A stretch of DNA of 64,000 nucleotides from Capillidium heterosporum (Eukaryota; Entomophthoromycota; Entomophthoromycetes; Entomophthorales; Capillidiaceae), in the NCBI GenBank assembly GCA_016630905.1, contig WBMQ01000002.1:1116001-1180000 (forward strand). The letters run 5' to 3'. The translations under genes were made by a program, and so were the position numbers. Position 1 is the first letter of the stretch. Every line of letters begins with the position of its first letter. The notes under the pieces are model-generated. The model searched no databases. It was not told the DNA's origin and worked only from the letters and a program-made list of their open reading frames with translations. This document shows, one piece after another, positions 15,671 through 63,600 of the stretch.

Positions 15671-16997
15671 ATGAACAACTATATGGAGTACTGCCTGAAC
15701 CAGTACTTTGACAAAGTTGGCTGGAAGAAGGAACACTTTTACTCCAATTTATGTCAGTCGTCGATAGGTAGCTTCCAATTAAATTTCAACTAACATGTTT
15801 TAGACATCTTAGACTTTAGGATACCAAATGGCTTTCAATTGCATTTCGCTTTGAAGCCCAGTATGCAGACCAAGAGCAGTTTATCCATATCCAGCCTACC
15901 AGCAGTCAGCGGTTCTATCGGTTTCCTGTATACCTCGACTGAGTTCTTGGTACCCAACAACACCTTCATGCTCCACAACAAGCAGCAGGAGAATCTATAC
16001 TTAGGGCAAAGTGTACAAGCTAGATCCCTTTTCAGCAACCAACTTAAGGATGTCACTGTAAAGAGGCTAACTGAGTTGGAGGATATTCAACTTATACAGA
16101 TGGTTCAAGACAAGGAAGGTAAGCCAAAGGAAGAAAACAGTGCAACAAAGTCGGGAGTTTCGGGAATCAGTCGAGATTATTTGGCTTACGGGCATCTCTA
16201 TTTACCTAAACCCAAGATGGAGTACCTATTCAGTCAGCAGTTGAAGCCCAATTTACAGTACATAATTTCGGGTGTATCTTTACCCTACGACCCAGACAGT
16301 TCTCACGTAAATTGTTTAATTGACCCATCTAAGATAATATAGGTTTCATTGACTGTACAACATGAAACTAAAAACCAATGCAGCGAGTACAGCTTTACAT
16401 CCGATAACCAATTGGTAGGTTTAAGGACGTTATATAGACTATCTTCCCCAGTAAATCAACCCCAGTACTGCATCGGTGGTGAACTATACTATGCGACGAT
16501 GACTAAAGCGGGTGGAGGTAAATTTACATTTTTCCCATATTTTTAAACAATCCATTAAAGTGTCGTTGGGTTTACTACGACGGGACAGTGGACGATCTCC
16601 TAACTGACCTGACTATACTATGTAACCCAGTCATGGGGCACGTAGCACTTGCCTATACTGGCATGCTGACCCCACAACTCACCACATCGACCCGCTACGT
16701 CTTTAATTTTAATTCCTTGGAATCGGACTACGCCATGGGCCTGGAGTGGCGTAATCGGCACCAAGGACTTATAAAGTTTAGGTTCTCGTTGACCAAAGTA
16801 AGACTCTAGGTTTGCTTTTCCTTGCTAAATTTTAAATTTAGGGTGCCGCTGTCTTGTTCAGTGGGAACTATCGCCAACTTCATTTCTCTCTAGCTTTGAA
16901 CCTACCACTTTGGTCCAACCAAGTCCCCCAGTTTAACCAAGAGTCCAACAAGTTCGACCCAAGGACGTTGGGTATCCAACTCCAATACTTCTCTTAA
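15671..16997 (+). CDS. MDM10: Mdm10, mitochondrial outer-membrane beta-barrel (ERMES/SAM), one +1 break
   Basis: Five exons (15671-15767, 15804-16306, 16343-16517, 16561-16797, 16842-16997), introns 36-44 nt. The family signatures are present: N-terminal YFDKVGWKKEHFYSNL, LDFRIPNGFQLHF, the GGELYY segment, CNPVMGHVALAY, and the closing GIQLQYFS that gives the terminal barrel strand. Mdm10 links ER and mitochondria in ERMES and assists the SAM complex. Exon 4 starts in phase with the conserved GGVSLGL segment, but then meets TGA at 16605; the conserved LTILCNPVMGH continues in the +1 frame. One surplus base between about 16587 and 16605 explains it, and 388 aa result. Apart from this the gene looks fully maintained. 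Confidence 0.88.
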
Positions 16998-17166
16998 TTC
17001 ACGTAATACCGGTATAGTAGATTTCCATCTACTACTTTAAAAAGTTGTCCTCTAAAACGCAAAGTTATTTCGAGTGAGGAAGTTTTCATGTTATAGATTA
17101 AATTAACATCTAAAATCACTTTAACTTGTTGCAGTAAAATTTTACAAGTATATATCTTTATTGTCA

Positions 17167-20100
17167 TTATAGTTCATTAAGGCCGAGGGCAATGGGTTTC
17201 ATCAAGAAGCGACGGGTACCCAGCAAGTTGCTACCTGGTAGGTTAGGATCGGCAAGTATAGGCTCCTCAATTAAAGAGTAGCCTAAGCGGGTCAACTGGG
17301 TCGACCTCAAGAACCTATTAACATCGAAGATGGACATCTGTCGTGCCTAAATAAAAATAATTAATTCCTACTATCATTATATCAAGAATTACCTTAGCTT
17401 CGAATTCTTCAACTGGAATACGGATCTCCTTCTCCAACTCCTCATCAACGTTCACCTCCTGGTTGCTGGTGCCCTGCCGTTCCCTTATATTCTTGAGACC
17501 AAACAAATGGAGGGCATCTCGGGCCATCTTGTTGACAAGGCTGACGAGGCGAGCATAGTCGTCCCGATCCTTGTAGAGATACCTTCCGAACTTCTGAGTC
17601 AGAGCGCGTTTGACGCTGAGCTTCTGCGTGCTTACAAAGTGCTGTAGGAAGGTAGCCATGGCTAAGTCCAGATCCTTATGCAGTACCTGATCTCTAAGAT
17701 GCATCTTGGCATGGGCTTGGGCCATACGGATGATGGATTCGAGGTGACGTACCGTCATAGCCATACCACCAGCTCGGTAGGCTTCTTCCCTAAGCTCGGC
17801 GTACATGGAAGACAGCTTTTCTCGATCCAACTCGTGCAGCTGGGGTCTAATCTGATTGCGGGCATACCTCAAGTACCGTACGTAGTAAAGGCTGGCTAAT
17901 TGATTCGATGGCAAGTTCTCCCAATTCATCGTTGTTATGGCCGTTGGCCTGGGTAGCTTCTTGTAACTCTTGGCTAGCCATAGGATGAGATGCCTGGTGA
18001 GAGTCCAGGACGAAATTGGCCAGTTGGCCATCCAAAGTTGGATCTATGATGTCTCGAACCACGCATACACAATCAAATCGTGACAAGATGGGTTCGGTCA
18101 AATCCACATTCTGAGTAAGGGGAAGGGTGGGATTGTAGGTACCTCTAACTGGATTAGCAGCAGGCAATGACGGAGCATCGGGCCCTTAAACTAGTCACAA
18201 TGCCGGCTTTACTGATAGAGATGCTCTGCTGTTCCATAGCTTCGTGGATGGAGGTACGATCCTTCTCATTCATTTTATCAAATTCATCGATTAAACAGAC
18301 TCCCTGATCAGCAAGCACTAGAGCACCTCCCTCTAAAGTCCACTCTTTACTGGCTGGATCCTTGTGTACTGAGGCGGTTAAACCAACAGCCGAGGCTCCC
18401 TGACCGGTTGTATAGACACAGCGATGGGCGGTCTTTTCCGTATATTTGAGAAACTGGGATTTAGCACACCCAGGATCACCAATCAATAGAACGTTGATAT
18501 CTCCACGGATATGGTGCTTACCATTGACTACCTTTGAGGTGCCGCCGAACAGAGCTAAAGCAATGGCGGTCTTCAAGTCGGTATGACCGAAAATAGAAGG
18601 GGCGATAGAGTGAATGATGCGTCGGGCGATGTTTGGATCCTTGGCAAGTTGTTCCAACTCGACAAACTGCTCTTGAGTAATTTCTTCATCTTCATGCTCC
18701 AGGCTAGATGCCTGGATATGATTGGCCTCGATTGTGGTGGAAAACACGGGGAATCCATGCTTGTTGTTGAGGGCGATGTCTAAGTTGTTTTGGTAGATCC
18801 CAGTCACTGTAATCTCCTCACCAGGTCGGACAGTATCGACTAGATCCCACAACAAAATTACTTCACGGTATCGAGGTAAACGACCGGCAGGTACTGTACC
18901 GGGGGTCTCTTGCAAAGTGATCTTTTGGTAGTTACGGTAGACAGTCTAACGGAAAGTTAGATTTATAAAAATCGCTACTTTACCTGTTCACTACAGAAGG
19001 TGAAAGGACCTTTGGACTGACAGTTGGAACAGCTGGAGACCTTGACTTCGCTAGTTGAATTGGGTTCCTGGTAGAAAGGACCTAGTACGACAGAGCACTT
19101 GACGCACTGGTACTTTACATATTTGAGCTGGGGGAGTATGTTGCTACGTCTGTTAACTACTCCGGTAACTTTGATCAGAGAGTTGAGATGAGCATGGCGT
19201 AAGTTTCGTAACGAAGTATTGGTACGGCAGTTGGAGAATCGTACATGGATTTCTGAGTGAATGCGATCAAAGTTGGGGAATAGCTCCATCAGTCTACCAA
19301 AAACAACTTGGTCGAATAAAGGTAAGATGGATTTGGGAGAGCTAATTAGATAGTAGGCTAAGATGGCGTGCTCCTTTACAAGATCTCGGTAATCAATGAC
19401 TAGGGATTCCTCGTTGGCTAAAAGACATTTAGAGTAGAAGAACAGAAAAGCTTACAGCCACCAAGATTTTGAATAGCTTCGTAGTACTTGCGAGCACCGT
19501 TCTGGTCCACAAAGTTGGCTAAAAACATGGTGAATTTATTCTTTATGGAGTTTCGTACAGATTCAATTGAAAGGTATTCACTAATCTCTTTGCCTTTTAT
19601 GTTGTTCAATTCATCGATATCAATGTTTAGATCCTAAAAATTAGAAAGCAATTTTATATCAATTTACAATCGATTGCCTGTCTTCACGATACTCCCTAAC
19701 TTCCAACACGTTCCTACGACGCCGTCTAGATGGGTCAATAGGAGCAAGATCCTCATCTGTCTAGGTTAAAATTGAAATGCAAAGAATTTAAATATTACCA
19801 TTGTCAAGTAGGGCCCCAGGGCCTCTGTTTTCAGCACGGTCTCTGGCATTTAAAAAAGCTTCAGCGCGGCGACGTTCGACTGGGTCCATCATATTATACT
19901 CTTGATTATCCAATCCTTCTTCATCGTACCTGTCTAAAGCTTCGTTGCGTTGGTAATCACTAGTAAAATTAGCTTATTACAATTTTGTTATTTTACGCCT
20001 CTAAATCGGAGCCGAACAGATCTTCACCGTTATCATCGAGGTCAATTTGTTCTTCGAGTATGGCTTCTTCATCTTCCTCATCTTCAAAACCCTCAAAGTT

Positions 20101-20267
20101 TTCATTGTTTCCATCAGCTGTTGTATTCGTCTACAGGGCTGTTGTTGTTGCTATCTTGAGTGTCACGGCTGCGACGTCCACGGGTGCGTTTTCTCTCGTT
20201 GTTACTCTAGAAAGTAAATTATCAGCGTTGTTCCTCAACAGATGTATTTATTCTTAGAGCTTACCAT
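17167..20267 (-). CDS. MCM2: MCM2, subunit of the MCM2-7 replicative helicase, three +1 breaks
   Basis: Eight coding exons on the minus strand (20267-20265, 20206-19997, 19959-19799, 19756-19668, 19633-19456, 19417-18984, 18945-17393, 17346-17167). The first holds only the ATG. Features: a basic then acidic N-terminus; zinc finger CVKC...CSNC (exon 6); Walker A GDPGCAKS; Walker [18 protein letters not shown]; sensor-1 AANP; arginine finger SRFD; and the C-terminal winged-helix end. The N-terminal [19 protein letters not shown] assigns it to MCM2. The frame is broken three times by one surplus base: near 20116 (AGC TGA), at 18162 inside the invariant IAAANP motif, and near 17879 before YLRYARNQ. 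Skipping one base each time gives 934 aa, with all phases closing. Confidence 0.92.
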
Positions 20268-21009
20268 CTTCAAGTATTTGTTGGCTTTCTACCCTGGCTT
20301 TATTGATTTGTAAATTTACAATGACTAATCTCAAGTTGTCGAACAGGTTGAACTATTCAGTCTTCAGGCTTACAAAAGTACAGAAAACTTTTGAAGCTTG
20401 ATAAATAATCTTGGATAATTGGAGTTCGAAAATTTCAAAATTCATCATCTATTTTAGGCTTGTAGAATTTCCCAGCAAATCATAGAATAAGCTTCAAATG
20501 GACAATCTTTTGTTGACGTGTTGCTGGATAGGCGAAAGGATAATAGATCAAGAATACAGCTTTAATTTACATATTGCTTTTAACAGATAATGCCAAGCAT
20601 AGCAAATATTCTATATATTGAGCTATAATAAAGTTTTAATGTCTTTTCTTGGCAGTATTAGCAAAGCTCTACATCACCTTTCCTATCGAGTTTTAATACA
20701 AAATGCAAGAACTCCAGGATACTCTTTCTCTACATAATAAATTGACAAGCTTTGTAAATTAATATTTAAGGTATACATTTAAGTCCATAGTATTGTGTAT
20801 ACAAACCAGTAAATGCCTACTAGTATACTCACAGATTAATTAAGTTACATATCCGTGTTAGCATCAGTGAGTAGATATACTATAGGAATGTATGCTTATA
20901 AGCCAAATTTTATACATATTGCATTAAGCAGTTCTATTACTTTACTACAATAGGTTACGAATAAAGCTAGTATACATCTGACACATGTTATAGAAACTGC
21001 AGCAGAGCA
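20268..21009. other. Spacer upstream of MCM2
   Basis: AT-rich; contains the MCM2 promoter. No gene was seen. Confidence 0.5.
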
Positions 21010-22510
21010 CATAGCCAACTGTGAATCACCTAAAGGCTTGAAACAAAGATTCCTTTATCTCTAGAGGAAGCTTTCGCAGCAAATACAGGTTGCTTATAAA
21101 AAAGGGAATCTGTTCAAAATACTCGAGAGGTAAATGGCAGCAGATTCGTAGTCAATGCTCCATTTCAAATAAATGCTATCATGGCAGCACCCAAACTAGA
21201 AATTATATTATCTGTTAAAACAACTATATAGGAGATCGTAGCCATATCCTTAAATTCAATTGTTGATTGGTACATGTCAGTAATGATACATATCTCAAAG
21301 CCTTGTTAGTATTTCCGTGGTCATAACAAAGCTGCTCGATAAACTTGGGTGACAAGTAAGTATAGTGAAAGAAAGTCCAACGACATTTAAAAGACATCCA
21401 AACCATATTAGCGATTTCGTCTATTTAAATTTCTTTATAAGGAATCCTGATGGCACACTAGCAATGAATCACGAAGCTTGACAAAATCTATTGAAAAAGC
21501 AGCGTGTGCTTTCGCTATGTCCCTCAAAATAATAAGGTATGAAGGTGCATTCAACTTATCCTATTCTCAAACTTTAGGATCATTTGAACTATAGCTAGGA
21601 CCAAAACTTTTTTTGAAAGTTGCGCTTAGGAATCAGCAGATTAGAACTGCACTATGAAACCTTATATAAACAGACCCACTAACAGTAGTACCCTGACGAC
21701 AAGTATCAAAATCAATCTAAGACTGGCAGATTTCAAGGGTTCATAGATTACGATTGTAAAAGGGATTAGAGTCAAGGCCAAGCTAAGAGTCAAAGCAAAA
21801 GTCCAACTATATCAATTTCGGTCAGTGTTGATCAATTAAGGATTCACTTCTTCTGGGCACTGTTTTTACCTTTCCTAAATAGGCCAAAGAGAAGAGGAAA
21901 AGAAAGTAAAAGAGTCCCTACAACAAGTATAATGTACATCCAGTATCAACCCAAAGTTTCAACTTTGTTAATTAGAGGTATTGGTAGAAAAAGAGCAATA
22001 AACCCGGGAAGATACTAAAATGTAAATCCAAGGGCACGATTTTCGGCTACAGATGTATCGATAACCATTATCGTAGCTATTAAATGACTCCCAGTATTTC
22101 CAATATGATTTATGACAAATCCTACCGCATACATGAAGAAATTGGTCCTACTTATACTGATTATCAAGTTTCCTGCTACTGATATCGTGAAAGCTAGGAC
22201 CAAGACGTTCCCTCTCCCTATCATATCGGAAAATTTTGCCAATAGAGGTAAAATTAATGCACTGAAAATAATGGATGTAATTTTGGGGAATGCATTTTAA
22301 ACCAAAGGACTTGTGTTCATATAATATCAGCATATGTAGCAGGTGTAGTGCGTATATGATCGTGCCAAAGAAACCGCAATGTAACAACATATCACCAATT
22401 ATCAGTTTGGTGTTGAAATTCTATTTTTGTCTAATATTTCCTTGGTTGATTTCAACTGGGTTTATATTGAGGGTAACGCTTTCCTTTACTTTCACTCCTT
22501 AGATATCGTT
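21010..22510 (-). pseudogene. Decayed tandem copy of the siderophore-type MFS transporter
   Basis: The minus strand matches the intact transporter at 23347-24955 along most of its length but has stops and frame changes throughout. Recognisable pieces: AKFSDMIGRGNVLVLAF (near 22240), the following segment to ENRALGF near 22020, a central piece near 21700-21900, and the C-terminal part near 21030-21400 (QLVM-like end and YQST-type segment). Unlike the genes with single +1 breaks, defects here are many and of mixed kind. Likely a tandem duplicate that lost function. Confidence 0.8.
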
Positions 22511-23346: not shown

Positions 23347-24955
23347 TTAGTTTAACTTAAGTGGTTTTAAAAGTAGAGACATTAAAAAACCAACACAGGC
23401 TAAAGCGAGAGAAACGGAACACATAACCAACTGTGAATCACCTAAAGCTTGAAGCCAAAGCTCCTTTACATCCAGAGGAAGCTTTCGCAATAGATACAGG
23501 TCACTTAAAAGGAGGGGAACTTGATCGGTATATTGGGAAGGTAGATAGTGGAGTAGATTTTTGGATAAGGTTCCATTCCAAATGGCGGTTGCGATCGCAG
23601 CGCCTAAACTAGAGATAACATTGTCAATAAGCACAACTATGTAGGAGATCGTAGCGATATCTTTAAAGTCTACCGTTGATTGATACATAGCTACAATTAC
23701 ACAGGTTCCAAAGCCACCCCCAGCACCGAGGAAGGCCTCGGCGGTTATGATGAAAGCATCTGATGTACCGGGGTGACGAGCCTGGGATGGTCAAGGCAAG
23801 TCCAACCACATTCAAAATGCATCCAAGCCATATCAGAGATCTCGTCCACTTGAATTTTTTCATAAGTACTCCCGCAATTATCCCAGTTATGTACCACGAA
23901 ATTTGATAACTTCTATTGAGAATGGCGGCGTGAACTTCCGTTATATCTCTCGAGATGATGAGATAGGAGGTGAAGTACACCCAGTTAATGGTAGTTTCGA
24001 ACTTGAGTATAGTTTTGACAGCAATAACCACTAACAACGTTCGGTTCTGGAATATACGTCTAGGGATCAAAGGGTTGGAACTGTATTTGAACTCCCAAAT
24101 GAACAGACCTATCAACGTTACTGTCCCAACTACAAGCATGGAAATCAACTTGGGACTAGCAAAGCCCAAAGGCTCACGAATTACGATGGTAAAGGGAATT
24201 AGAATCAAAGCTAAGCTAAGGGTTAAAAGCAAAAGTCCTATGATATCGATTTCGGACAGTATCGACCAGCTGAAGGCTCGTTTTTCCCGAGTACTATGCT
24301 TACGCTCCCTAAATAGACCAAAGAGGAGGGGAGAGGAAAATACGATGGTTCCAACAGCAAGTATTATATAAACCCAGTACCAACCTAAAGCAACAGCCGG
24401 TTCAATAAGTGGAATAGCAAGAAAGATGGCGATGACGTTAGGTAGCCAATACAGCATGTAACCAAGGGCCCGGTTCTCTGTTATCAAAAGGTCAGCCAAA
24501 ATAATTGGAATCAAAAGGTCTCTCCCCGTATCACCTAACTTATTGATGACCGAACCAGCAGTATACATACTGAAGTCAGTTCTGCCGATACCGATGATTA
24601 AATTCCCTATTACTAAAAGTAAAAGGGCTAGTGTTAAAATGCTTCCCCTGCCAAATATATCAGAGAACTTTGCGTACAAAGGTAAGAAGAGGATACTAAA
24701 GATGATGGAGATGACTTCAGGGGTACCGTTTAGATCGAAGGATTTAAGGTCACCTAGGATTAACGTCTGCAGTGGGTAGATTATATAGGTTATCAAGCCG
24801 AAGAAGGTGCCGAATAAGATTACACCGCCGATTATCAAATAGATGTTGAGATTCCATTTCTGCTTGGTAGCTACTTCATCTTCGATTGGATCTAAGCTGT
24901 AGATGTCCTTTTCGATCGACTCCTCTACTACAGTATCGGTTGCTGCTTTTCTCAT
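23347..24955 (-). CDS. MFS transporter, siderophore-iron (Sit/Arn/Mir) type, one +1 break
   Basis: Single exon, about 535 aa once one base is skipped. The product has many hydrophobic helices after an acidic N-terminus. The MFS signature AKFSDIFGRG lies after the second helix. The C-terminal half has LGAAIATAIWNGTLSKNLL, matching the GxAIxxAIW segment known from fungal siderophore transporters. The frame changes near 23757-23774: upstream it reads to LTIPGSSP, while AFIITAEAFLGAGGGFG and everything after is one base shifted, consistent with a surplus base in a CCCC run or close by. Likely function: uptake or export of ferric siderophores at the plasma membrane. Substrate is unknown. Confidence 0.85.
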
Positions 24956-31727: not shown

Positions 31728-33484
31728 ATGAAGTTTTTAAGCTCTATCCTATTGGTTGCCTTGCTCGGCATCACCGAACTAAATGCTCAATGCAGTCGAA
31801 CCTACGTACGTAAGGAAATCCGTCAGCTGTCGAGTGGCGAAATAAGTGCTTTCTTCAATGCCTGTAAAGAAGTTGCATTCGGGTACTGCTCCTACCAAAT
31901 ACGACCAGTTTGTAGGTACCCATCTCCAATACACCCCTGAAGCGCACGGTACCCCAGCCTTCCTAACCTGGCACCGATACTACCTGCGACAGTTTGAAAT
32001 CGCCTTACAGGCCATCGACCCTAGCGTAAGCTTACCCTACTGGAACTGGGCCTATGACTCGCAGGCTCCCGAGCTGAGTGGTGTTTTCACCAGTTCCTAC
32101 TTTGGTAACGGGGGTAGTGGCGGTTGTCTGAAGGATGGACAGTTTGCCAACTGGTCCTGCTACTACGACGAGAACAACAGTGCCAACCCACATTGCCTAC
32201 AACGTAGGTTTAATAGTGCCCCCAGGATTGGTGCCTTCTACAGCCCAGAAGCTTTACAGCAAATCATCTCTGGATCCAATAGCTACGACCAGTTCCATCA
32301 GCAGTTGGAGTATGCCCCTCACGCTGCCGTACACAATGGTATAGGTGGAGATATGTCTACCATGGCCAGTCCTAACGATCCCATCTTCTGGCTACACCAT
32401 GCCTTTATCGACAAGTTGTACTCGGACTGGCAGAACTTCAACCCCAGGAATGTCAACGACTACGGAGGTACCAACCCCAACGGTGCTAAAGCTACCTTGA
32501 ACGACATGCTGAATCCCTTCAATGTACGAGTCAGTGCAGCTATAAGTGCTAGTAGGTTGTGTTACACCTACTCTTCCGACGGTATTGACGTAACCAAACC
32601 TCCACCGGTTACTAACACGACTACTCCAACTCCAACCCCTCCAACTCCAACTCCTACCCCTACTCCATCGTCCAGTCGTAGCCGTAGCAGCACGCGAAGC
32701 TCCAGCAGTTCAAGCTCATCGGGTAGATCTCGATCGAGCTCCAACTCCAATAGCCGTACCCGTAGCACTTCGACTTCCGATGACGACGACAATTCTACTT
32801 CTACTTACACTTCCACCTCCACTACCAATTCGGTACCTAGTGGAAGCTATACCACTAAAGTCAGTATTAACATCACCATCGGAAACAACGTCGTTGTTAA
32901 TCCTGATACCCCGGTTGTAGCTCCTAATAGTGATGATCGTTACGATGACTCCAAGATCCGACTCCCCTATCCTATTCCCGACTACTGGACCAAGATGAAC
33001 AAACTTTCAGTTACTATCATGAAGCAGCAGGAGATTAAATTGGGCAAAGTTATCACTACCTACAACAAATTACCCAACTACCGTTCCCCCGTATGTTTGA
33101 GTAACCGTCCTGATCTAGCTTCCCACCTCAATATAAAGATTCGCAAGGGCAAAAATCCAGTTTTGAAACCTCTACCTGGTGCTCATCCCAATTATAAGCC
33201 AGATAACAGTAGCAACAATAGCGGTAACAACAATGATAACAATAACAACAGGCGGCGGCAATAACGATGATAATGACAATGGTAACTACTACAGTAGTAT
33301 CGATAGTGGTAACGACAATAACGGTGGATATCCCAGTAAACCTACCAAAGTGACTGATGGGTACTACCCTACTAAGCCTAGTAAGTATACTAGTGTTCAA
33401 GTTGGAGGTGACAATGGAAGATATCCAGTTATCAGTACTTCGAAGTGTGCCTACAAACCTACCAAACCTGTCCACCACTACTAA
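31728..33484 (+). CDS. Secreted tyrosinase (type-3 copper oxidase), two +1 breaks
   Basis: The ATG at 31728 gives a clean signal peptide (MKFLSSILLVALLGITELNA). The catalytic domain has the CuA histidines (LHS, PEAHGT, TWHRYY) and the CuB set (HAAVHN and FWLHHAFID), so both copper sites are complete. The enzyme would oxidise phenols to quinones outside the cell, for melanin or cuticle interactions. After it comes a linker of Pro-Thr repeats, a Ser/Arg-rich run, an Asp patch and an Asn/Gly/Tyr-rich tail. The frame changes twice by one surplus base: near 31863, between the signal-proximal part and the first CuA histidine, and near 33250 in the Asn-rich tail. With both skipped the protein is 584 aa. 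The second site could instead be the true stop (33264). Confidence 0.88.
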
Positions 33485-35839: not shown

Positions 35840-37174
35840 ATGGGAACTTCGTCAAGCAAAGTCAACAATCAAGACAAGGTGCAACAACTACCTCAAGAGT
35901 ACCGGTACCAACTCGAGCTTCAACTTCAACACTTGAAAGATGGAAAATTCGTCAAGTTTGTAGAGAAAGGTAGTTCCCAACTTTTAAACGATACTTTAAT
36001 AGAAAGGTTGCAAGTTACCGATCAAGTCAATTATATCGACACGATAGTTTTGTTACATAGGGACCCTAACCAGCTCTTTTTAAAGCTGTTGGAAGGGTAT
36101 ACCTCGCTATTTAGTTTAGTTAAAGACATTGTAAAGATTTATTTAACTAGTTTAGAAAAATTTTACCAGGTAGAAAGTAACGAAGCTAGCTTAGATAGAG
36201 TTTGTTTATACATTTTGAAGGAAGGGGTTAAAGGCAATGAGCTAGATTATTCCCAATACCAGTCCAACTTGGAAGCCTTTATTGACGTAGTCAAAACTCA
36301 GACTAAGGACGCATCATTTGATAGATTCTACTTAAAGACCCCCAAGTTTAACAAGATTTTTATTTCGACTTTCGAGCTCCTCTTACTAAATATCGAGCCT
36401 TCTACCGATAATCTACCCAAAATGGTAAACGGAAAGCTAGATGTAGATACTTTATTCCTCCTAGTTGAAAATTTATCCAGTGACTGTCCTCAAGGAATGG
36501 AGACTGTTGTACGATTCAGAAAAGGACGGTAAGAGTTGGAACAAGTTTTTAAGTTCTGTTAAAAGTGTCAACTCCACCTTCACTTTGATCTACGAGAAGG
36601 ATACTTCCAACATCTTTGGCAACTTTTCCTATCTGCGGTGGAAGCTGTTCCCCAAATTCTATGGTGACGGTAAGGCGTTCCTGTTTTCAATTTGTCCGAC
36701 GTTGGACGTCTACTTTAGGAGTGGCTACAATGAGAACTACCAATATTTGAATGCTAGCGCGCAGACTTTACCCAACGGTACTATTTAAGCTGCTTTGATA
36801 TTGACATTTATACTTTATAATGCTAGGATTGGGGACTCGGTGGGCAACACGACTACTACGGATTATTTTTGGAGCAGGATTTCGAACATGGCCAATCTAT
36901 GGCCAACCCCTTATGTTCGACCTACAACTCCCCCCAGCTGAGTTCAGAGCCTCAATTCAAGATTGGAAGAGCACAAGGTAATATATTTATTAGAAACACA
37001 TTTTAAATGATGGTTTTATTTTTTTAAGTTTGGTGTGTAAGAGAGTTGGAAGAGGAAGATGAAAGTGGAAACCAGAAGTCGATATTGGATACTAACCCCG
37101 ATGCGGCTGCTATATTGGAGATGTCCAATCACAAGATGTATTCAAAGGAAGTAAGGGAGCCCAACTTGGACTAG
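35840..37174 (+). CDS. RTC5: Rtc5-like TLDc-domain protein, two +1 breaks
   Basis: Three exons (35840-36777, 36827-36977, 37029-37174). The start MGTSSSKV fits an N-myristoylation signal (Gly2, Ser6). An N-terminal helical region of about 200 aa precedes the TLDc domain, whose landmarks are EWRLLYDSEKDGKSW, the GLGLGGQHDYYGLFL core and FKIGRAQVWCV. TLDc proteins of this group (Oxr1, Rtc5) are known to bind and regulate the V-ATPase; Rtc5 is vacuolar. Two single surplus bases break the frame: between 36485 and 36500 just before the TLDc landmark, and in the GGGG run at 36831-36834 inside GLGLGGQHD. With both skipped the protein is 410 aa and splice phases close. Confidence 0.87.
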
Positions 37175-38991: not shown

Positions 38992-41540
38992 ATGCGACTG
39001 ATAGTTTACTGGTGCCTTAAGTACCGCATTTACGGCTGCCGTACTGTACTCGGCATTCTTTGGTCCTTCCCAACAACACTTTTTTATAGCCGCTATACAA
39101 CTCTCCAACTCTTCTGCACCCCTTATGGTAGTTTTCTTATCCCCATCTGGTTTTAATTTTTATGTCTAGATTTTATTGAACTTTGGTATTTTCTGTACGT
39201 TGATGTTGGGGAAGTTACTTCAAACCATCTTCTTCGGACCTCTAAGGATGATAGAGGTTGAACATCTCTACGAGCGATCTTGGTTCGCTGTGACGGAGAC
39301 CTGCTTGGCTATGACTATATTTAGGGATGAGTTTGACACGCCATTTATTATAATGTTTACGACCTTGTTATTCATCAAAGTCTTTCATTGGCTGTGTCAG
39401 GATCGGGTCGACTTTGTAAGTGCTTTGGTTTGAATCAAGTTAATTTATAAAACGTAGATGGAGCAATCATTGCAAATCCCACTGCTGTTTCATGTGAGAA
39501 TGGTGACCCTTATGACGTGCTTATTATTCCTGGATTCGTTCCTCGTTTTTTACGCCTATAAGTATGCGGCACCTACATCTAGTATGCTCCTCGTGTTTGG
39601 ATTTGAGGTATTTTTATTCTAAAGCCACATATCCTAAGTTTTAAAAGTACGCCATATTGGCAACTGTACTACTGGCTACTTTTTCAAAGTATATCATCAA
39701 TGTTGTCGACTCCCGCTCAGAGGATACTTGGGAGAACAAGTCAAACTATATTTTCTACCTGGAGCTGGTCACTGGTAACTACTTATCAATATTCTTTGAT
39801 TTATTTTTGGTTTAGATTTCAGCAAGCTAGTCATCTATGTCATATTTTTTGTTATTGTACTGTCTCTGTACAGCATCCCACTACACATTATTCGCGACAT
39901 CTATGTTACCTTACGGTCCTTCCTCCAGAAGTGTGCTGATCTGATGCGTCGACGCCAAGCGACTCGTAACATGAACGAGAGCTACCCTGACGCCAGTCCT
40001 GAGGAACTGGAGCGGATGACAGATCCCACTTGTATAATCTGTAGGGAGGAGATGCGCCACCGAGACTGACAGCCAACCCCAACCAACCACGGGAAGGTAG
40101 AGGACCCGTCACCTCTGAGACTCCCAAGAAACTGCCCTGTGGCCACATCTTCCATCTGGCCTGCCTACGCAGTTGGCTAGAACGCCAACAGAGTTGTCCT
40201 ACCTGTAGATCTCCCGTTATTACCCAGGAACCACCAGCACCCGCCGCTCAGCAACAGCCACCTCAACCACTCCGCAACCCATTCCAAGCTCAACCTCCTC
40301 ACTTTCAACAACAAGAAAGGGTTGATCCTAACGGCAATCAACCGCTCGCTGGGTTCCAAGCCCCTAATCCAAACCAGCCTCCCACTTCCGACGGTAACGC
40401 GAATCCAATACAACACAACCATTTCACAGATAGCACACATGAACTGCAGCATGATGGTACACCACATTCCCACCACCAGCAGCCTTTCCACAGTCCCTAC
40501 TTTTGATTCGACGTCTCCTCCCAACCGACTGCCTTCTATCATCCCATTCAACTCCCATACCTCGGTAAGCATGGCAACGATGCCTACCCGACCTCGATCC
40601 CCCAATTCAGATATTCGTTCTCGCTATTCCTCCTCTTCTTTCGCTTACTCAACCGAGTCCGCGACCCAATTTGGCAATTCGGTTGCTGAGGCAGACAGGG
40701 CGGCGTTGATCCAGCAGATTCAAGCCATCGGTCAAGCTCAGATGAACCGAGAGAATGCTGAACGTGTTCTTGAGGAGATGTTGGCGCGCATTGACAGTCG
40801 AAGTTCACGACCTAGCCAGGACCATGACGCTAGTCTCAGGTTTAGGGGTGGAAATCAACCAATTTTCCAGGGTCGTAATGTAGGACCGTCTACTGGTACC
40901 AGTTTCGGAAACTTTGGGCCTTCCTTTGGCCGTACTCCCAACATAGGTTCTTCGACTGGTACCAGTACTAGTTCCAATCTCCCAAACTTTAGACCTTCCT
41001 TTGGAGCCAATTCTAACATGAGATCTTCGACCGGCGCTGATCTTTTTGGATCGTCCACTGGTAACAGTACCAGCACCGGCTACCGGCTTTGAAAACTTTA
41101 GGCCTTCTGATGGTTCCAGCCCCAACTTTGGATCATCCACGAGCGTCAGTGCTGGTACCAATCTTTTTGGATCATCCACGGATACTGGTACTACTACTGG
41201 TTTTGGAAACTTCAAACCTTCCTTTGGATCTTCGACTGGTTTCAAATTCGGCTCCAGTTCCAGTACTGACCCTAACTTGGCTTCGAGTGGGACTATAAAG
41301 CACTGGACCCAAGATGATAAGACAGTCCATTCCAGCCGCCTTCCTACACTCTCCGACATGTCCATTGGCGCCAATGCCAACCTCAACCCTAGTACAACAT
41401 CCCCTGATTCAATTAAGAATCCATCTGATGACCCAACTCCAGAAAACCAATCTAACCAAGGGGATGAGGATTTTGTCACTGTGGAGGATGCAGAGGATGA
41501 TGACGATTATCCAATTGGTATAAAGAGGAAAATGGGTTAA
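38992..41540 (+). CDS. HRD1: Hrd1-type ER E3 ubiquitin ligase, several frame breaks
   Basis: Five exons (38992-39127, 39170-39415, 39458-39607, 39648-39774, 39816-41540). The start MRLIVY, the signature EVEHLYERSWFAVTET, and DRVDF are Hrd1 hallmarks, with about six membrane helices. A RING-H2 domain has CIICREEM, then LPCGHIFHLACLRSWLERQQ and CPTC. Hrd1 ubiquitinates ER-associated degradation clients. The long tail is Gln/Pro-rich, then has repeats of Ser-Thr-Gly with FGNF/PSFG units, then is acidic. The frame changes by one surplus base near 39010 (codon 7), 40498-40504 and 41081, and by net +2 (or -1) between 40067 and 40097 within the RING insert. With these corrected the product is about 792 aa. 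Confidence 0.9.
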
Positions 41541-44244: not shown

Positions 44245-45673
44245 ATGTCCTTCAAGCTTTCTTTATTTATATTGACGACTCTGTTCCAGGTATACATCAG
44301 CCAAATCCTGTATGGAGGTGGATGTGGCATAGTTAGCAACAAAATGTACTATTTAGGCGGCAAATTGAATGAGCAGGACAACTATCACATCTATCAACTT
44401 AACTTGGAGCAAGGTTTCTCCCTAAACCAAGACCAGACTTACGACGTATACAGTGAGATGACGGTAAAGCCTTCTTTATATCCTAATGTAGTAAGTAGAG
44501 GCTCCTTGTACGAAGACATCTACTACCTAGGCGGCATAGGATCCAATCAAACCAACAACTTTTACTTCTTCAACACAATCAACAAGAAGTTTACTTTGGA
44601 TTCTAAGAGCAGTTCGCGGGAAATATTACAGTTGGCAACCTTTTTACGGAACCCCCAGGACCAAGATAAGTTCATCATGTACGGTGGTACCAACGACTCG
44701 ACACAAGCGCTTACTCCCAATTTCAACATTCCAGTTCGAATTGACAACGATACCAAAGACAAAATCTCCATCTACTCCATGTCGCAACGCAGTTGGACTG
44801 ACCAACCTTTAGACCAGCCCTTTTCCAACTCAAGGTACGACCACAGTGCTTCTATTATACGTAACCAACTGGTTCCTAGTTGGTGGTCAGTATCAGAATG
44901 GAACTATGGTGCCTATGGACCAAATTACTTTGATCGACCTCAAAAGCTTTCAAGTTACTAATGTGGTAGCTAGTGGCGACATACCCAAGTCTAGGATTGG
45001 CTCTACGTTAGTATCTATCAACCAAGAGACTAACTTAGTACTTACAGGAGGGTCCTTGGACTTAGATTTGAAGACGTTCGGCCAGACTGTTTATATATTG
45101 GATACCATAACCTACCAGTGGTACAAAATCAACAAGAATACCGATGTCACCCAGACGGTTGGGTATAGAAGTTGCTGTTTGAATTACAACGGGTACATCA
45201 TCTACGCTACTGGATATAAGAACGACATCAACAATAAGAGATTCGTCAACGTTATGGATAGTTCCACTTTCAACTTTTTGAAGTACTTTCCCGGTTCTAA
45301 GGAGAAATCCAACTCCAATCAATTGCCAGTATGGGCCATAATCGTCATTGTGGTTGCTTCCTTGGCACTTTTAGGCATTGCTATTTACTTTTCAGTTATC
45401 TTCATACGATGTAGGAGGGCTAAGAAGAATCTTAATGAAAAGAACTTGGAGTTTATTGAGCCTATCAATCAAGTTGACTTGATAACGGACGATATCAAGT
45501 GGGATGACAATCAGTTTTCAACTAATTACGAGAACCACCTGTTTAGCTTAGATTCCAACACCGTCATCATAGAGAATAGACAGCTGAACTATAGGAGTCA
45601 TGGTAACGGAAACGACAGCTCCAGCCAGAGTAAGAGGAATTCAGATGGGAGTACCCATACGATTGTCAATTGA
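44245..45673 (+). CDS. Type I membrane kelch-repeat protein, one +1 break
   Basis: The ATG at 44245 gives a signal peptide (MSFKLSLFILTTLFQVYIS). An ectodomain of kelch-like blades follows (GGGCGIVSNKMYYLGGK, YYLGGIGSN, MYGGTND, FLVGGQYQNG and others), then one membrane helix (WAIIVIVVASLALLGIAIYF, about residues 362-381) followed by a basic stop-transfer RCRRAKK and a cytoplasmic tail of about 85 aa. A beta-propeller with a transmembrane anchor suggests a surface or secretory-pathway adhesion or receptor role; no orthologue is recognised. The frame changes by one surplus base at 44866-44875, in the blade that reads FLVGGQYQNG; skipping it gives 475 aa. Confidence 0.83.
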
Positions 45674-49007: not shown

Positions 49008-49115
49008 AGTTTCAGCTTTAGTTTTGTTGAATTAGAAGTAGTGGAATGCTTAACAACCTCTAATGGCTTCTACTAATGCTTCCTTATTTTTATATTTTAA
49101 GATAAGGAATCTATT

Positions 49116-55571: not shown

Positions 55572-56383
55572 TTATTTAGTTTTGGGACAGGCATCGTACT
55601 TAATACCCAGCTTATGGTTAGAGGTGGTCTTATGTACAGGTCTACTGCTCTTATGGTGCAAAGCCTTTGAGATAACTTTGAAGCTGGGCCTTGGAGATGG
55701 TCAGTACCTTGGTAGATATGATCCAATGGAACGTTTTCTGAGCAGGGTGGAGTAGTCAACGATCCCAAGTAAGACCAAGACGACTTGAAATAATTAACAT
55801 CTTTGGCTAAAGTTCCTAAATTCAGCTTGTGCAAGGTTGTCGTACTTCCGGCGTTAGCTATTTTTCTCATGACTTTGGAATCGATATCGAACAAACTACT
55901 GGTTCGGATGGGGTGTTTGTCTTTCTTAAATAAGATGGCGAAAACTTGCTTCTGAGTCCCATCTTGATTGCTAAATACGAAGTGGGCTTCTACAGCAAAA
56001 TGCTTACCATCGATTGTATGTTCGGAAGGAGAATGGATGTGATACTGCTTTAAGTTAAACCTTGTACAGTTCAAACCTATAAACTGTAAATTTAAGGGAG
56101 TTAGATCGACTTTGAAGGAATGGCTATTGTTGGTTATATTGAGGTGCAGGTCCTTCTTGTTGGTCCAATATTCGCCAAGGAGTTTATTTTTGAAGTCGAT
56201 GACACCTTCCTTCTTAGTCAAAGCTATGGGAGACTGTTGGCTCCCTTTACATGCTGAGTAAGTTGGTGATAGGTCGGCCCAGTGCCCAGGGCCCTTTTGT
56301 CCTTCGTAGCTCCATGCTGAATCGGCTGCGTGGTTCCAACTGAAAAGCAAGCAGGTAAGTAAGATCGAAGGTTTCAAATACAT
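55572..56383 (-). CDS. Secreted alpha-carbonic anhydrase 2, two +1 breaks
   Basis: Tandem paralogue of copy 1. The ATG at 56383 starts the signal peptide (MYLKPSILLTCLLFSW). All three zinc histidines (QYHIHSPSEHTIDG, EAHFVFSNQ) and LTTPPCSENV are present. Right after SENV one surplus base (55729-55732) throws the reading off, and a second near 55662 does so again. Skipping both restores the conserved Trp after SENV, then STKVLTIS, HHKSSRP and NHKLGIKYDACPKTK, and gives exactly 269 aa, the length of copy 1. Without this the frame runs past the proper end to 55457 with a foreign tail. It may be a young pseudogene, but the surplus-base pattern is the same as in unrelated genes here. Confidence 0.85.
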
Positions 56384-56420
56384 TGTTGTCAAGCAAAGTG
56401 AAGTTTTGGGCTACCCAAGA

Positions 56421-56430
56421 CTTTTATATA
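56421..56430 (-). promoter_or_regulatory. Probable TATA box of carbonic anhydrase 2
   Basis: On the minus strand TATATAAAAG stands about 40 bp upstream of the ATG at 56383, matching the position in copy 1. Confidence 0.5.
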
Positions 56431-59177
56431 CGAATTTGAATAGATTACAATTTAGCTATTTTTAATTTTGGCTGGTAAATAAAATAGTAACATTTACTTT
56501 TTGAGCCCAACACCAGAATTTTACGAATGGGCTGGGGAACCGACCATACCAATTTTAGCTTTTCTGCGCCTCAATCTTAGTATTTAAAAGGCTGGTTACT
56601 CATCATCCACCAAAGTGTAAAGTTGTACTAATAACCAATTTACCTAGTAAAGCTTATACAATTGGATAGTTTACCTTAATCACCCTTTGTAAAATCTATC
56701 TGCTGAAGAGCTATATTTGAAATCCATATCTTTAATTTTTATTGCAATTGCCTTGAGTTCTGATTCTTGAAGCTTATATAGGTAGTGATGGGAACTAAAA
56801 TGTAGGGAATACATATATATTGATAGAAAACCAGCAGCATTTACCGCTACTTTTGTTACACATCAAATCCTTAAGATACGACCTACTTTACTAGTTGGAG
56901 TTACGCAATCGGAATAAATCCCAATTAGGAATTTTCACTTATAAATTGGAATTGAAATGGTTACTGCATATGGAAGTAATCCTATTAGACTTCGTCTCAC
57001 AGGTACTGACAGGATAAAGCCAAGCTATGTTAAACCTCTATAGGCATCTGTGTGGTAAAACTACTGGCCATTGGTAGTATAAGAAGACTCAAGCTATAAA
57101 CTTGACATACAGGTGAAATATCGACTCAGAAGCAAAAATGACACTATTTTTTAAACAAAGATCAACTCTTGAGCCGAACATTCTGATATTTTTATAAAAA
57201 ATTCCTTATTAGCTTTTCTTATAGTAAACAATCGTATCACGATCAATTAAAGATCGGAAATATATATTTCATCAGAAATTTCTGGAAATAACTCATGAGT
57301 TGATAGCACATTTGTATACTTGAAAACCGAATCTTAAATTTGAAAATTTTCAGTTTGTTGTGGCTGTTAGGAATTTAGCCTAAACTTTGATTTGAAGATT
57401 TGATTGCTGAAAATTCAAATATATTTTCAAAGGAAAAATAAATATATATACCGGAATCCTCGATATACTTTGAGTAAGCACAATAATTAGGTTTCAACTC
57501 TTTACTTGAAAGCCTTTGATCCAAGGGGAAAATAGCAAGGTAGTTCTATATTGAGTACTAATACTATTATAAAAAAAGAAGCGCCTTTCTACAGCACTCC
57601 ATATATATACATTTTATTAAATGAAAGGAGTATTTTAATTATATATTGAAATCACATGTACTATTGGGATAATTGATCACACCGTATTGAAAAATGAAAT
57701 TTTATCTATACATTTAATCATCATCATAAGCATATACTAGTCATGAAGAGCTGTAGCTATATTTAAATTCCTCCACAAATATTATTCAACAATTATGTAT
57801 TAGGCTTATGAATATCTGAGTGCTACATAACTGATAGCGCCTAGTAGCATTATGTAGGTGCAATATATGCGTAATATAAGCTTATAATTTTTGATTTTGA
57901 CTCTAGAGCTAGAAAATAAAATCATCAGGCAGTATGTATAGAAAATAGAAAGGGGGTGCTAAAGGAGAGGGTGGTGCAGATATGTAGATATGTTTAAATG
58001 AAAAACCAAAACGCTGTATATTTCAACTTGTAATAAACTGGTATTGATAAAGTATTTACCCAATATTAGAGTTGAGAGACACCTGCTTTCCAACTAGAAA
58101 GGATATCGTCATCCAGGATAAGATCGATTAAAAGGGCAAGTAATATTATAGTGTTGAATAATCATCCCTATATTGATACCTTTATATATAGCCTTACTCA
58201 TTTCATTACATTACAACTTTCTGTTTTCAATACTCCATCTCCTGTGTTAGCTGCAGAACTAAATCTATTTTACTCTTTTCTATTGAATAGTATCATCCTA
58301 CTTTAAAGATTTTACAGGGCCTAGCTTCCAGTATCATCACAAATAGACACCAGCTTGGCTATTGATCATAGTTGGGACATCATCTATATAAGCCTTTTTA
58401 GGCAACTGTACTTGAACTTGAGCCACATTCTAACAAATACTTCAATTGAACTTGGCAACGATACTTTTGGTGTATTCTGCTTCTAAAAACGCAGTCTACT
58501 TTGACTAAAATTTGGTATTCTGTAGTTGAGTCCTTTACTCAGATTTAGGCCTAAAGACCTAAGTTTAGTATAGTATAAACTAATAGCTCGGACTTGGCAT
58601 GTCTATTTCCTGTAGCCAAAGGCTGCGCAGGCCTGATTGGTTTTAAATATATTCAATATATGAACTTAGGCTTGGCATGTGAGCTGTCTCACCTTAAATA
58701 AGTCACATAACATATTCCAAATATCGAAAAAAGTAACTAATCGATTCATCCACCTTCAGCTTTTAGTGGACCTGTCATGACTATATGGGCTTCAGCTTAA
58801 AAGTTTTGAGACCGTAACGAACCAGCTTTAATGTATTTTACCAAGTAGGCGCATCTTACGACGGTGTTCAACATCTTTTGAAAGGAATGTACGGCTTAAT
58901 TACTCTAAAATGGATAAATTAAAATGTCCAAGTTGTAGACAGAAATTTCATAATTACCGCTTGATCAAGATCCAACAAAATTTTCCAAAGAAATTCATTT
59001 CAAGTAAATATGAAATCGTTTCCTAATTTGGAAATTCCATCCAATTTCTTACATTAAAAATAGATTTTTGAATCCAAATCAAGACTTAACTATGTCATGC
59101 TGCAATTGATATCCCTAAGTGGCAAACCTGCAGCTTCTAGAAAGAGTCATGAATTTATTTTATCCCGCTTCTCCAAA

Positions 59178-59186
59178 CTATATAAG
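59178..59186 (+). promoter_or_regulatory. Probable TATA box of 8-Cys protein 2
   Basis: ACTATATAAG-type sequence about 80 bp upstream of the ATG at 59263. Assigned by sequence and position only. Confidence 0.5.
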
Positions 59187-59262
59187 ATGGACTTTTGTCT
59201 TTTACTAAGGCTCATCTTTATATTCTGTATCATAACAACTCGTTGTAATTAATCCAAACATA

Positions 59263-59743
59263 ATGAAATTCGCTACCGTTATCGCCACCTCCATCCTAGC
59301 TCTTGCTGTCAACGCCCAAGGTTCCGCTAGTACCAGCACTGACCCCCAACCTTCCCAATCCCTGTCCCCTAACCAGCAGTGTGCCGTCGACAAGAAGTGC
59401 ATGGGCGACTTGGCCTGTCTAGCCGCCTGTAACAACGTCCCCAACCCCGACGGTGCCCAGGTCGAAAAGACTAGAGCTTGCGTAGCTGCCTGCGACAACA
59501 CTAAGCCCATCGCTGAATACTCTGACTGTACCCAAAAGTGTATCGCCGGTATCTACTTGGACCACCCCAACTCGGGTGGTAACGGCAACAGCAACTCTAC
59601 CGACGGTAAGAATGGTACCAATGGTGCCGGAGGTAAGAACGGCACCGGCGGTAAGACTTCCTGACTCCACTTCTTTGTTGACTCAGTCTATGACTGGTAT
59701 CTTCGTTGTCGCTGCCACTATCGTCGCCTACTCTTCCCTCTAA
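59263..59743 (+). CDS. Secreted 8-cysteine protein, probably GPI-anchored (copy 2), one +1 break
   Basis: Signal peptide MKFATVIATSILALAVNAQ, then a compact domain with eight cysteines in the pattern C-x5-C-x5-C-x3-C-x16-C-x3-C-x11-C-x3-C, the same as the protein at 640-1398 except for one loop. A Gly/Asn/Lys linker follows. In the ATG frame a TGA at 59662-59664 ends the protein at GGKTS. Skipping one base there, reading continues DSTSLLTQSMTG and then a hydrophobic tail (IFVVAATIVAYSSL) to TAA at 59743, giving 159 aa and a GPI-signal-like end as in copy 1. GC-rich codons suggest high expression. The function of the domain is unknown. Confidence 0.82.
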
Positions 59744-60611
59744 ATTTGTATAATAACTAATTAAAAATTTATCTAATTTGCTCAAGTGTACTTGGTACTT
59801 TATTTCTATTATTTGATATGTGACATTTAGCTTCATTTTTACTATAAGTATCTTAGTATAGGAATATCGAAAGATGGGGGAGCTTTTCATCTATGGGACT
59901 CAATCGCTCCTTCATCTTTTCCAACCAATTTTTCAGCCTTTTGTCTTTCACTATTTTGAGCTCATGACTGCTGAGGGCCAGGCAGAATTCCTTAGCCAAT
60001 ATATGAGTTGGCGCCTCTCAAACCTTTAGTTTTAGGATAAATTAAAATTTTCACCAGATTCGGCTATTTTTTCGATTAGATTTTGGAGATGGATTTGAGA
60101 GATTATTGCTTCAATCCAAAGCTGAAGATATTGATAGGATATCTCATAAATTTTTGGAGTCAAGGCATCAAGAATCGTATATGATAGGAGATTGGAATGA
60201 CTTATACCTACTTTTGCTTGGTAGTCGTCTGGAAAGGATCGAAAGAGAATTCTAAGTTCTAAAAATAGCTAACTACACCTGTTCTCTATACTCTCTTTTT
60301 CATCACAGTTGGTAATCGTTGTAATAGTACAGATTTAGGCCCAGGTTTGCAGGTTGTGGAAACCTGGATATCCTTTATCAGTAGATAAATACCTATAAAT
60401 TATCGAAACAAACGCTATATGAATTATGAAAACACTTTCGAGTTTTGAGAAAGAAAAAACCATTATAAACATAACTTTATACAGTCTATAATAAGAAAGC
60501 TATCATACATTTTTAAGATATAGTCAAGGATATGTAAGTCAAAATACTAAAAAGTACTTGTTTTATTTATGTACTAGCATCAAAATTCAAAACATATAAA
60601 CTATCCCCAAT
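59744..60611. other. Convergent spacer
   Basis: AT-rich 3' regions of 8-Cys protein 2 and the Sec7 gene; no gene seen. Confidence 0.5.
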
Positions 60612-63600
60612 TCAAAGTTTGAAAACCTTAGTCCCAACCTTTAGCAAGAAGTTCTGTGCTTCTTTGTGGACGTCGTTCCGATCGGTAGTTATAGTTTGGA
60701 CTACCCTTGTGTAAAATTCAGGGTAAAAGTTTCTCCAAACTATCGTACCGAACCTTATCTTCCTCCATATCTTCGTCCTTGATCCAACAGGGTATACTGG
60801 TAATATCTCGAAGTACCTGGCATACGAGGTGGGCCCAGTTGCCAATTTCCCGCTTGAGTGGAGGAGGTTGCTCGTTGATGAGGGACGTAAACTTATCAAG
60901 GATCAAAAAACACTCCTTGGAAATCTCTAGGAATAGTGGAGTAGCTTGTGTTAGTAAAGGATTCTTGATACCAACGGTTTGGATGTCGTAGTCGTCGCCA
61001 AAAGTCGTGTAAAGCAAAAATGCGACCTGGAGATAGGTAGATCTGGCTGAAGACTCCTGGCGAATGAGGTGGGGAAGTTGGTTGACATAACCTTGGACCC
61101 ACAGGTAGTTGCGGAGGACTTGGTCAGCGTTGAACTTCTTTGCAAACTGGGCTGATCCTAAAAGCAGCTCGAGCCACCTCCTGCAGACGTAGGGAGGTAG
61201 TGTCATGAGTATGGGCTTACTGTTAGGTTCAGCTTGGCCTTCGGTACCTTCAGTGTACAGGAGTATATCCTTTACCGATTGGAGTAGAGAAAGGTGGATA
61301 CTACATTTAAAAAGTTCGGATGGGATATCCACGTCGTGCTTGAAGAGGGTACTATCCTTTGTCACGGTACCGTTAACTGGTGCAGGGGCTGCAGAAGGTG
61401 CTGGTGTATCTAAACTAATTTTTCCATTTTCGGGCTCCAAGTTTGTTGGATGGTGTGTGATCTCAGCCTCACCTTCTTCGACCGGCTCTTCAGGCTCGTA
61501 ATGTCCATTGGTAGCTTCTATAGTATCTAATGGTTCTTGAGTATCGACATTGATATCTTCGTTCTCAGTCGTAACGCTAATGACTTGGCTCTCCTTATCA
61601 ACCTCGACTGAAGCTTCTTGGGTAGGCTCAGGTAGTATAGTAAACAGTGCTTCTGGAGTGGAAATTTCAAACAGATCGGTCAAAGAACGTGTAACAAGGG
61701 CCCACATTTCATCGTCGAACTTTCTATAGTTGTCTATTATTATAGACTTGTACAAAGATAGACAATGACGGGTCAGATTGTCGTTACGGTGGTGGACCAA
61801 CATGCTGGTGATAAGCTGGAACATCCTCTCAACGAATTCGATGTTGGAGGACAGATCAGCGTAGAACTCTTCGAACAGGCTGATGAGGAGGGACATGGCC
61901 TTGAACCAGTTATCGGCCCCTGGACCTTTCTTGTCGGTGTTACCTCGGATATCGTCAAAGATGGGGATAAGTACGCTGCGAAGGACCATATTCCAAAATT
62001 GATGGTGGAATCGGGTGCCCGACTTTCGGAGCGTCTCAAATAGCAACGTAAGTGCCTCGTCTCTCAAAGAGTCGTAGTGGGCATCAATGACCACCTTGGA
62101 GAAACCAGATAGGACAGGGAACCACTTGTGGTACAGCGGATCGTAGTTCGAAGCTTCTACCTCACCATTTTCCAAGGGTTCAGTCGATCCTTCACCTAGA
62201 AAAGGCTCAACACTCTTTTGCATAAGGTTTATAGCCTCAGTAGCTATATCCTTACTTACCTTGTTAATACCAAAGGCCACCATGCAGTTGATCCCATCTA
62301 TAAAGGCCGTGCCCAGGAGGTCGAAATGATCCTCAAAAACGTTTCGGGCCAGTTTGAAAGAAGTAGATAAGATGGAGAGGGAAGGTTGGTAGCTGGAAAG
62401 GTAACTCAAAACGGTAAACACCGACTTCCAACCTGATTTGATGTTAGATGCCCTCGAGTTGATCATTTGTGCCAAGGACTGCAATACCAGATCCTGCATA
62501 CCAGGGGTATGGTTGTGTCGCGCGATGTGTTCGAACGGCTTCAAGAACTCATGCTGAGTATTGAAATGAGACAGTTCCTCTCGGTCGACGAACTTCATAC
62601 TCAATTGACGCAAGGAATCCACAGCTAATGCTGCTACACTGTGATCTTCATGACATCCCACCGTGTTGAAATAGGGCCGCAAGATCTTCCAAATAGGCGT
62701 CCATTCTAGACGGATTCGGGTCATGTTGTAGTAAGTGATCTCGACAATCTTCTGTAGACTGAAGGTTCGGGGACGTCCCGGGTAGATCTCCTCGACTTCT
62801 TGAAGGGATACGTTACAGAGTGCTCGGTAGAAGTGGACGATGGACATACCACTGAAAGATACACTATTGTTGAAGATTTTGTCCACCTTGACGAGGGTTT
62901 CCTGGGTACGGAGCTCCTGGAGTAGGTCACCGATGACAGGTTGACCTCGTAGCTGGGATAGGAGGTTCAGATCTTGGGTTAAGGATAGAGGAGCACCGGT
63001 TACCCGACGCGGGGAAGACGTAACTAGGCCGTCCATAGTCAAAGATTTACGACTCTCGGATCGAGGCTTTTCGACGTAACTGCTGCTGATCGGTTGGTCG
63101 GATTGGTCCCCAAAGAAGTGAAGTTGCTCCATTCTTGAGATAGCTTCCAGAACGAGCTCCCACGATTCATCGAGATACTCTCCGTACAAATGAGCGATGT
63201 TGATCAAAGACTGGGTGCATGCAATATGCTTTGGTCGAAGGGCTTCAACTTTGTTGATGGAAGTAAACTTAATCAGCGATGAGATGAAGGCATTGCGTTC
63301 AATTTCCATAAAGTACATGCTGCTTATGTGGATGGCCCCTGAGAAACCTTCGATGCATAGTTTGACTGATTCACTAGCAAGGTTACCGTCAGGAGTCGAG
63401 TCATGGACATCAACAATCTCTTCGAATATACGGCTGAATGCTGCGATGATGGGGTACCATGCTACTGCGAACATGGGCTTAACGTGGTCAGTGTGTGTTG
63501 CACTGAGAAACATGGAGTTCATAGTTTGGGAGTCGGTTCCTTGGAAAAGAGAGAGCAGCTTCTTCTGCAAGAAGGCGGCCTCTTGGTGGTACCTAATTAG

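Follow-up and report, generated by a model that had tools for sequence, protein, structure and literature searches.

Genes in a 64,000-nucleotide stretch of the Capillidium heterosporum genome (hereafter the window) are repeatedly interrupted by single surplus bases that shift the reading frame by +1. The window is part of a contig, C12 in our numbering, within a 29.5 Mb assembly of 44 contigs, some of them up to 3.2 Mb long. The one-way +1 excess is a genuine pattern of the sequence and extends beyond the window; it is most likely an artefact and not a genuine biological feature. Specifically, we hold it to be quite probable that the breaks arose during assembly, with both alleles of synonymous single-nucleotide polymorphisms (SNPs) written out in an unphased, merged consensus.

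We parsed the DNA with a hidden Markov model (HMM) whose states were coding sequence, intron, one-base gain and one-base loss, with both directions of shift charged the same cost. Within the window the model called 9-10 shifts of +1 and 1-2 of -1, according to the penalty (7 and 0 at the first settings). Across 341,011 bases in 41 stretches, a set that retains small overlaps between L017 and L020 and between L034 and C23b, it called 35 shifts of +1 and 8 of -1 (binomial p = 4e-5). A first-pass annotation of the window, made from the letters alone, had proposed that the direction of the breaks exceeds chance; these counts bear it out, and split Pfam hits elsewhere agree. For the latter we tallied by hand split hits without intron room, subtracting three times the profile gap from the nucleotide gap and reducing modulo 3. 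Among canonical genes, 11 junctions were +1 (in MCM2, MCM6, a polo-like kinase, five HSP70, a CHD-like remodeller, a myosin and a chitin synthase) and one, in a chitin synthase on C7, was -1. Set aside from the tally were decayed HSP70-like copies, intron-compatible pairs and one ambiguous myosin pair on C2; the chaperonin gaps that were checked were compatible with introns, one further search showed no clear split, and searches with ABC and AAA profiles, for which 19/92 and 19/87 candidates were scored, had little informative value. The decayed HSP70-like copies carried shifts of both signs (10 and 9 by hand count), and the one-way pattern is mainly a property of otherwise intact genes. As a noncoding control, 63 tRNAs were scored (of 2727 candidates) and all were full length, 14 tRNAs lying in the DNA stretches examined; this control is a weak one.

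Inspection of the eight -1 calls of the HMM assigned two to introns (C23b 16730 and C12b 34666), and in three a codon seems to have lost its third letter (HRD1 40067, chitin synthase C23b 22929 and L020). On the same reading, the call made at 40180 belongs at 40500. At L064, a -1 site, the three-frame view suggests a Pro codon lacking the third letter, although scoring with homologs of a different chitin synthase class preferred another placement.

To pin the junctions we deleted single bases one after another and scored each resulting peptide against homologs, with 29 MCM2 proteins, 14 chitin synthases, PDB homologs and in-genome paralogs as references. Twenty-two sites were scored, of which 15 were well pinned (margin at least 2) and seven fell below that margin (MCM4, kinase L061, chitin synthase a and d, SEN1, CHD and tyrosinase). 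MFS, L060 and L063 were not entered, as homologs were wanting and the MFS paralog was too divergent; the MED14 and HSP110-like pieces had no usable PDB homolog, L033 was dropped as a duplicate of L032, and L004, L006 and L008 were dropped as overlaps. At 14 of the 15 well-pinned junctions the same amino acid results whichever of two adjacent letters is left out (p ~3e-5 against random insertion), and at 13 of the 15 the two letters form a transition pair (p ~4e-7 against random insertion). With the margin relaxed to at least 1, the counts were 18/20 synonymous pairs and 16/20 transitions. Simulations on this genome's genes gave expected synonymous and transition fractions of 0.407 and 0.233 for random insertion, 0.402 and 0.249 for run lengthening, and 0.505 and 0.275 for skipping at codon boundaries. 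The codons concerned are Ala (MCM2 and MCM6), Arg (MCM2), Asp, Phe and Thr (chitin synthases), Asp (SNF1), Pro twice, Gln and Asp (HSP70), Val (carbonic anhydrase) and Leu (SEC7), plus one secreted protease.

Modelling of the letter spectrum at the 22 homolog-informed sites gave a mixture of C-T (0.66), A-G (0.10), T-C (0.08) and random insertion (0.16), in which synonymous transitions carry 0.84, run lengthening contributes nothing, and the fit beats random insertion by 9.3 nats. Among the 35 HMM events treated without homology, the letters of a doubling tend to stand in alphabetical order (against random insertion, P = 0.0013; for order, P = 0.013; 0/4000 simulations for the reverse letter order), plausibly a tie-break of the consensus step. 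The opposite order occurs at carbonic anhydrase 55730 and at HSP70 L059, each adjoining a run, and the order rule is therefore only a tendency. Codon usage alone placed junctions weakly (P = 0.044 against random) and discriminated only once letter order was added.

The sites in the window are as follows, with the basis for each.

16600..16608, + strand: MDM10, +1 switch; three-frame reading by eye, HMM needs no shift
17876..17882, - strand: MCM2, +1, Arg codon holding a transversion pair of synonymous letters; 29 MCM2 homologs, margin 3
18162..18164, - strand: MCM2, +1, Ala codon, its wobble letter doubled; 29 MCM2 homologs, margin 3
20108..20124, - strand: MCM2 N-terminal region, +1, not pinned; open frames and HMM
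23765..23785, - strand: MFS transporter, +1 switch, not pinned; three-frame view, a divergent paralog putting the break at 23778 without a synonymous pair
31860..31866, + strand: tyrosinase, +1 switch, weakly pinned; three-frame view, HMM and PDB homologs, margin 0.5
33240..33256, + strand: tyrosinase tail, +1, Asn/Gly-rich stretch; HMM
36478..36500, + strand: RTC5, +1; three-frame view and HMM
36826..36842, + strand: RTC5, +1, right after a probable intron end; three-frame view and HMM
39005..39015, + strand: HRD1 start region, +1; three-frame view
40055..40070, + strand: HRD1, -1, codon without third letter by reading; HMM
40494..40508, + strand: HRD1 tail, +1, low complexity; three-frame view
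41074..41086, + strand: HRD1 tail, +1, low complexity; three-frame view and HMM
44860..44880, + strand: kelch protein, +1; three-frame view, HMM has a 34-base intron instead
55680..55686, - strand: carbonic anhydrase 2, second +1, the only well-pinned site without a synonymous pair; one paralog
55728..55731, - strand: carbonic anhydrase 2, first +1, Val codon at the edge of a run, holding a pair of synonymous letters; intact paralog at 53137-53988
59655..59666, + strand: 8-Cys protein, +1 near the C-terminus; three-frame view and HMM
60712..60728, - strand: SEC7 C-terminal region, +1; three-frame view

Most of these had been listed in the first-pass annotation as surplus bases. Three-frame views confirm a switch to frame +1 with continuity of the protein at MCM2 18162 and 17879, MFS 23770, tyrosinase 31863, RTC5 36492, HRD1 39010, kelch 44870, both carbonic anhydrase 2 sites and SEC7 60720. 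At 20116, 33250, 40500, 41081 and 59662 the protein is of low complexity or unconserved and the case consists of open frames only; about a third of the listed sites lie in low-complexity protein. For MDM10 16605 the switch is visible by eye, and the HMM closed the gene by using another intron, with no shift. RTC5 36832 comes right after the probable intron end, and the second carbonic anhydrase break is better placed at 55683 than at 55662, with one paralog as reference. The further statement that no gene needs a single-base gain does not hold, as HRD1 has a -1 (or +2) shift near 40067. Among the three causes then offered, insertion-biased assembly error is favoured, and can be narrowed to doubled allelic letters.

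The proposed route to such letters would begin with a heterozygous isolate, either diploid or with two nuclear haplotypes, most of whose assembly would be a merged, unphased consensus, presumably of long reads. At some heterozygous SNPs the software may have aligned the two alleles into separate columns; emission of both letters would leave a surplus base and a +1 shift, and, more rarely, emission of neither would leave a -1 shift. Individual reads should then carry one letter or the other and not both. SNPs tolerated in exons would mostly be synonymous transitions, so that the surplus letter would lie next to the other allele's letter, in most cases at the wobble position, and break the frame one way. 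We therefore read the synonymous transition pairs as merged alleles, since differences between haplotypes in exons are mostly synonymous transitions; at pinned sites the surplus letter and its neighbour behave as allelic alternatives, as merged haplotypes would have them. One aligned pair, C17 and C4, points to a heterozygous, incompletely phased source genome: L054 (C17:46501-48500) and L055 (C4:1427601-1429600) differ over 2 kb by 8 SNPs, of which 7 are transitions, and by one 15-base gap, with no single-base indels between the two contigs in the 2 kb aligned. From this similarity it is probable that C17, a 53-kb contig near-identical to part of C4, is allelic and was retained in the assembly.

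Comparable damage has been described elsewhere. Korlach et al. 2017 reported, for early FALCON, spurious indels where merged haplotypes differ, with harm to gene models (PMC5632298), and Cosentino et al. 2021, working on a collapsed assembly of the diploid Trypanosoma brucei genome, traced some truncated frames to allelic variants and indel errors, which phasing corrected (PMC8445201). The early FALCON case likewise places indels at nucleotides that differ between haplotypes; the part of its text available to us gives no letter-level fingerprint of the kind given here. The T. brucei case, as far as its available text goes, likewise has frames broken by allelic variants, there through nearby variants and differences in repeat length, here mostly through single synonymous pairs. 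If the breaks are indeed artefacts, a chromosome-scale assembly holds many false frame breaks, which damage gene models and could pass for translational recoding. Such a fingerprint, in which the surplus runs one way (+1) and consists of adjacent synonymous transition letters while -1 sites lack a third codon letter, would then serve as a read-free test for such artefacts in unphased assemblies.

Several observations weigh against doubled alleles. We sought a haplotig of MCM2 and found none. The first pinned set (n=13) had only 10/13 synonymous pairs and 8/13 transitions, and 11/15 well-pinned sites can also be explained as run lengthening. Over 51 sites a fixed general SNP mixture scored -201.6 versus -201.1 for random insertion, and C-T alone was supported among the pair classes (0.33), as it was on 42 sites. 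Pairs of C/T outnumber those of A/G by 12:1 at pinned sites, against an opportunity of 61:39 in sampled codons (P = 0.016) or 68:32 in local windows (P = 0.047). The inserted letter was estimated on 42 sites as C (0.88) or G (0.12), with a bootstrap range for C of 0.62-1.0, and the gain, 7.0 nats, exceeded the maximum of 5.3 in 30 simulations of SNP doubling that were run without homologs. The result for the inserted letter cannot by itself separate the models, because every transition pair contains exactly one of C and G, and the idea of a surplus that is always one letter was rejected. The general SNP mixture over all sites (42 or 51) did not improve on random insertion and did better on the homolog-informed subset only; unpinned sites, a number of which are probably misplaced, may dilute the signal. 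Because of the 51-site result we lowered our confidence in doubled alleles slightly, from high to a little less high, and moved programmed frameshifting up marginally from a very small chance.

The strongest competitor, though an unlikely one, is that an unpolished long-read assembly has made ordinary consensus errors of the insertion type, governed by run length or context and independent of heterozygosity. Such errors would account for the one-way insertions, for the lengthened run possible at 11/15 pinned sites, for the failure of the general SNP mixture to beat random insertion over 51 sites, and for the inference of one letter, C, as inserted on the coding strand. Against them, random insertion predicts synonymous transition pairs at about 0.23, versus the 13/15 seen, and pure run lengthening, tried as sole cause on 13 sites, has a poorer fit than random insertion; at the 22 sites informed by homologs it brings no gain.

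It is, to our minds, improbable that many genes undergo programmed +1 ribosomal frameshifting in which one base is skipped, often a U after a codon ending in C. On this explanation the fungus would tolerate and use +1 sites in HSP70, MCM2, MCM6, chitin synthase, SNF1 and SEC7, in either orientation, and the excess of C-T over A-G would be its signature, a proposal to which we assign the same low standing. The shifts are one-way and located in essential genes, coding-strand C-T pairs dominate for genes on both strands, and C-T-purine contexts are 2.6 times enriched relative to random. However, the weight of C-T-purine placement was 0.043, versus 0.085 expected of a pure signal (0/4000 simulations), with 0.017 for random insertion and 0.034 for doubled alleles; pinned exceptions to that context exist (carbonic anhydrase, MCM2 17879, and HSP70 L058 and L059), as do -1 sites. 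The earliest sites that were pinned by eye had suggested one slippery motif, NNC-T-R; as sole signal it was rejected by the simulation and the pinned exceptions. A frame-0 stop codon occurs at only 1/15 well-pinned junctions (L065), and the chitin synthases of E. muscae and N. thromboides run gapless through the junctions at C23b 21153 and 21963.

The antizyme +1 frameshift site is UCC-UGA, and a few of our sites resemble it: three read TCC-TGA in frame 0 (59662, C2b 8835 and chitin synthase C23b 22184). The three all fall outside the well-pinned set, and the codons at most sites are different ones. To our knowledge, one-direction frameshifting across many genes would be the first known in fungi; the open-licence papers searched name no such frameshifting for this fungal group. 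If the bases are real, they would represent a new recoding system in fungi. The first-pass annotation had raised Euplotes as a parallel, where, in the portions of the reports available, +1 frameshifting likewise affects many genes in one direction through a surplus base (PMC4759687, PMC5011710). The present case differs from those accounts (PMC4759687, PMC5011710) in that most junctions lack a stop, there is no common signal, the letters form synonymous pairs and some sites are -1. The parallel is not supported: frame-0 stops are rare, a single slippery signal is rejected, and the surplus letters lie nearly all in synonymous, mostly transition, pairs.

Removal of a single base from mRNA, by editing or a splicing-like step, would fit one-way surplus letters on the coding strand, but A/G and other pairs and -1 sites exist, we know of no machinery for it in fungi, and we give it almost no weight. 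Equally negligible is the idea that the genes are decayed copies with true indels, since although decayed HSP70-like copies with many stops are present, these show both signs, whereas canonical HSP70, MCM2, MCM6 and chitin synthase are intact except for mostly +1 shifts.

The divergent HSP70-like copies, with many stops and shifts of both signs, lie at C2:407355-408918, C2:441571-442989, C44:657948-659344, 670521-671735 and 699166-700034, and C32:697713-698856, and are apparently decaying members of an expanded family.

To judge from protein similarity, the source fungus is an entomophthoralean near Neoconidiobolus. The mitochondrial ribosomal protein L2 encoded at 6986-8131 of the window has 83% identity to that of Neoconidiobolus thromboides across 83% of the query, and Entomophthora muscae ranks third among the L2 matches listed, at 70% identity. 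N. thromboides FSU 785 is not among the best 120 MCM2 homologs, though for L2 it ranks first and for chitin synthase second; the MCM2 model there may be absent or damaged, or may lie beyond the length limits of the search. In the HMM parse of the window, GT...AG introns are frequent, at about 34-80 bases.

Secreted alpha-type carbonic anhydrases stand in tandem in the window, at 52984-54254 (intact) and 55418-56675 (with two +1 breaks). A degraded MFS transporter copy at 21005-21956 shows gaps of many different sizes against the gene at 23417-24390, with which it shares 69% DNA identity. Elsewhere in the assembly, the protein kinase genes L032 and L033 (C23:2888494 and C23:2894322) are inverted relative to each other, lie 6 kb apart and share 99.6% identity over 1.6 kb, interrupted by one single-base gap, and L045 (C43:1140001-1150000) holds five tRNA-Lys(CTT) genes inside 4 kb, in alternating orientations.

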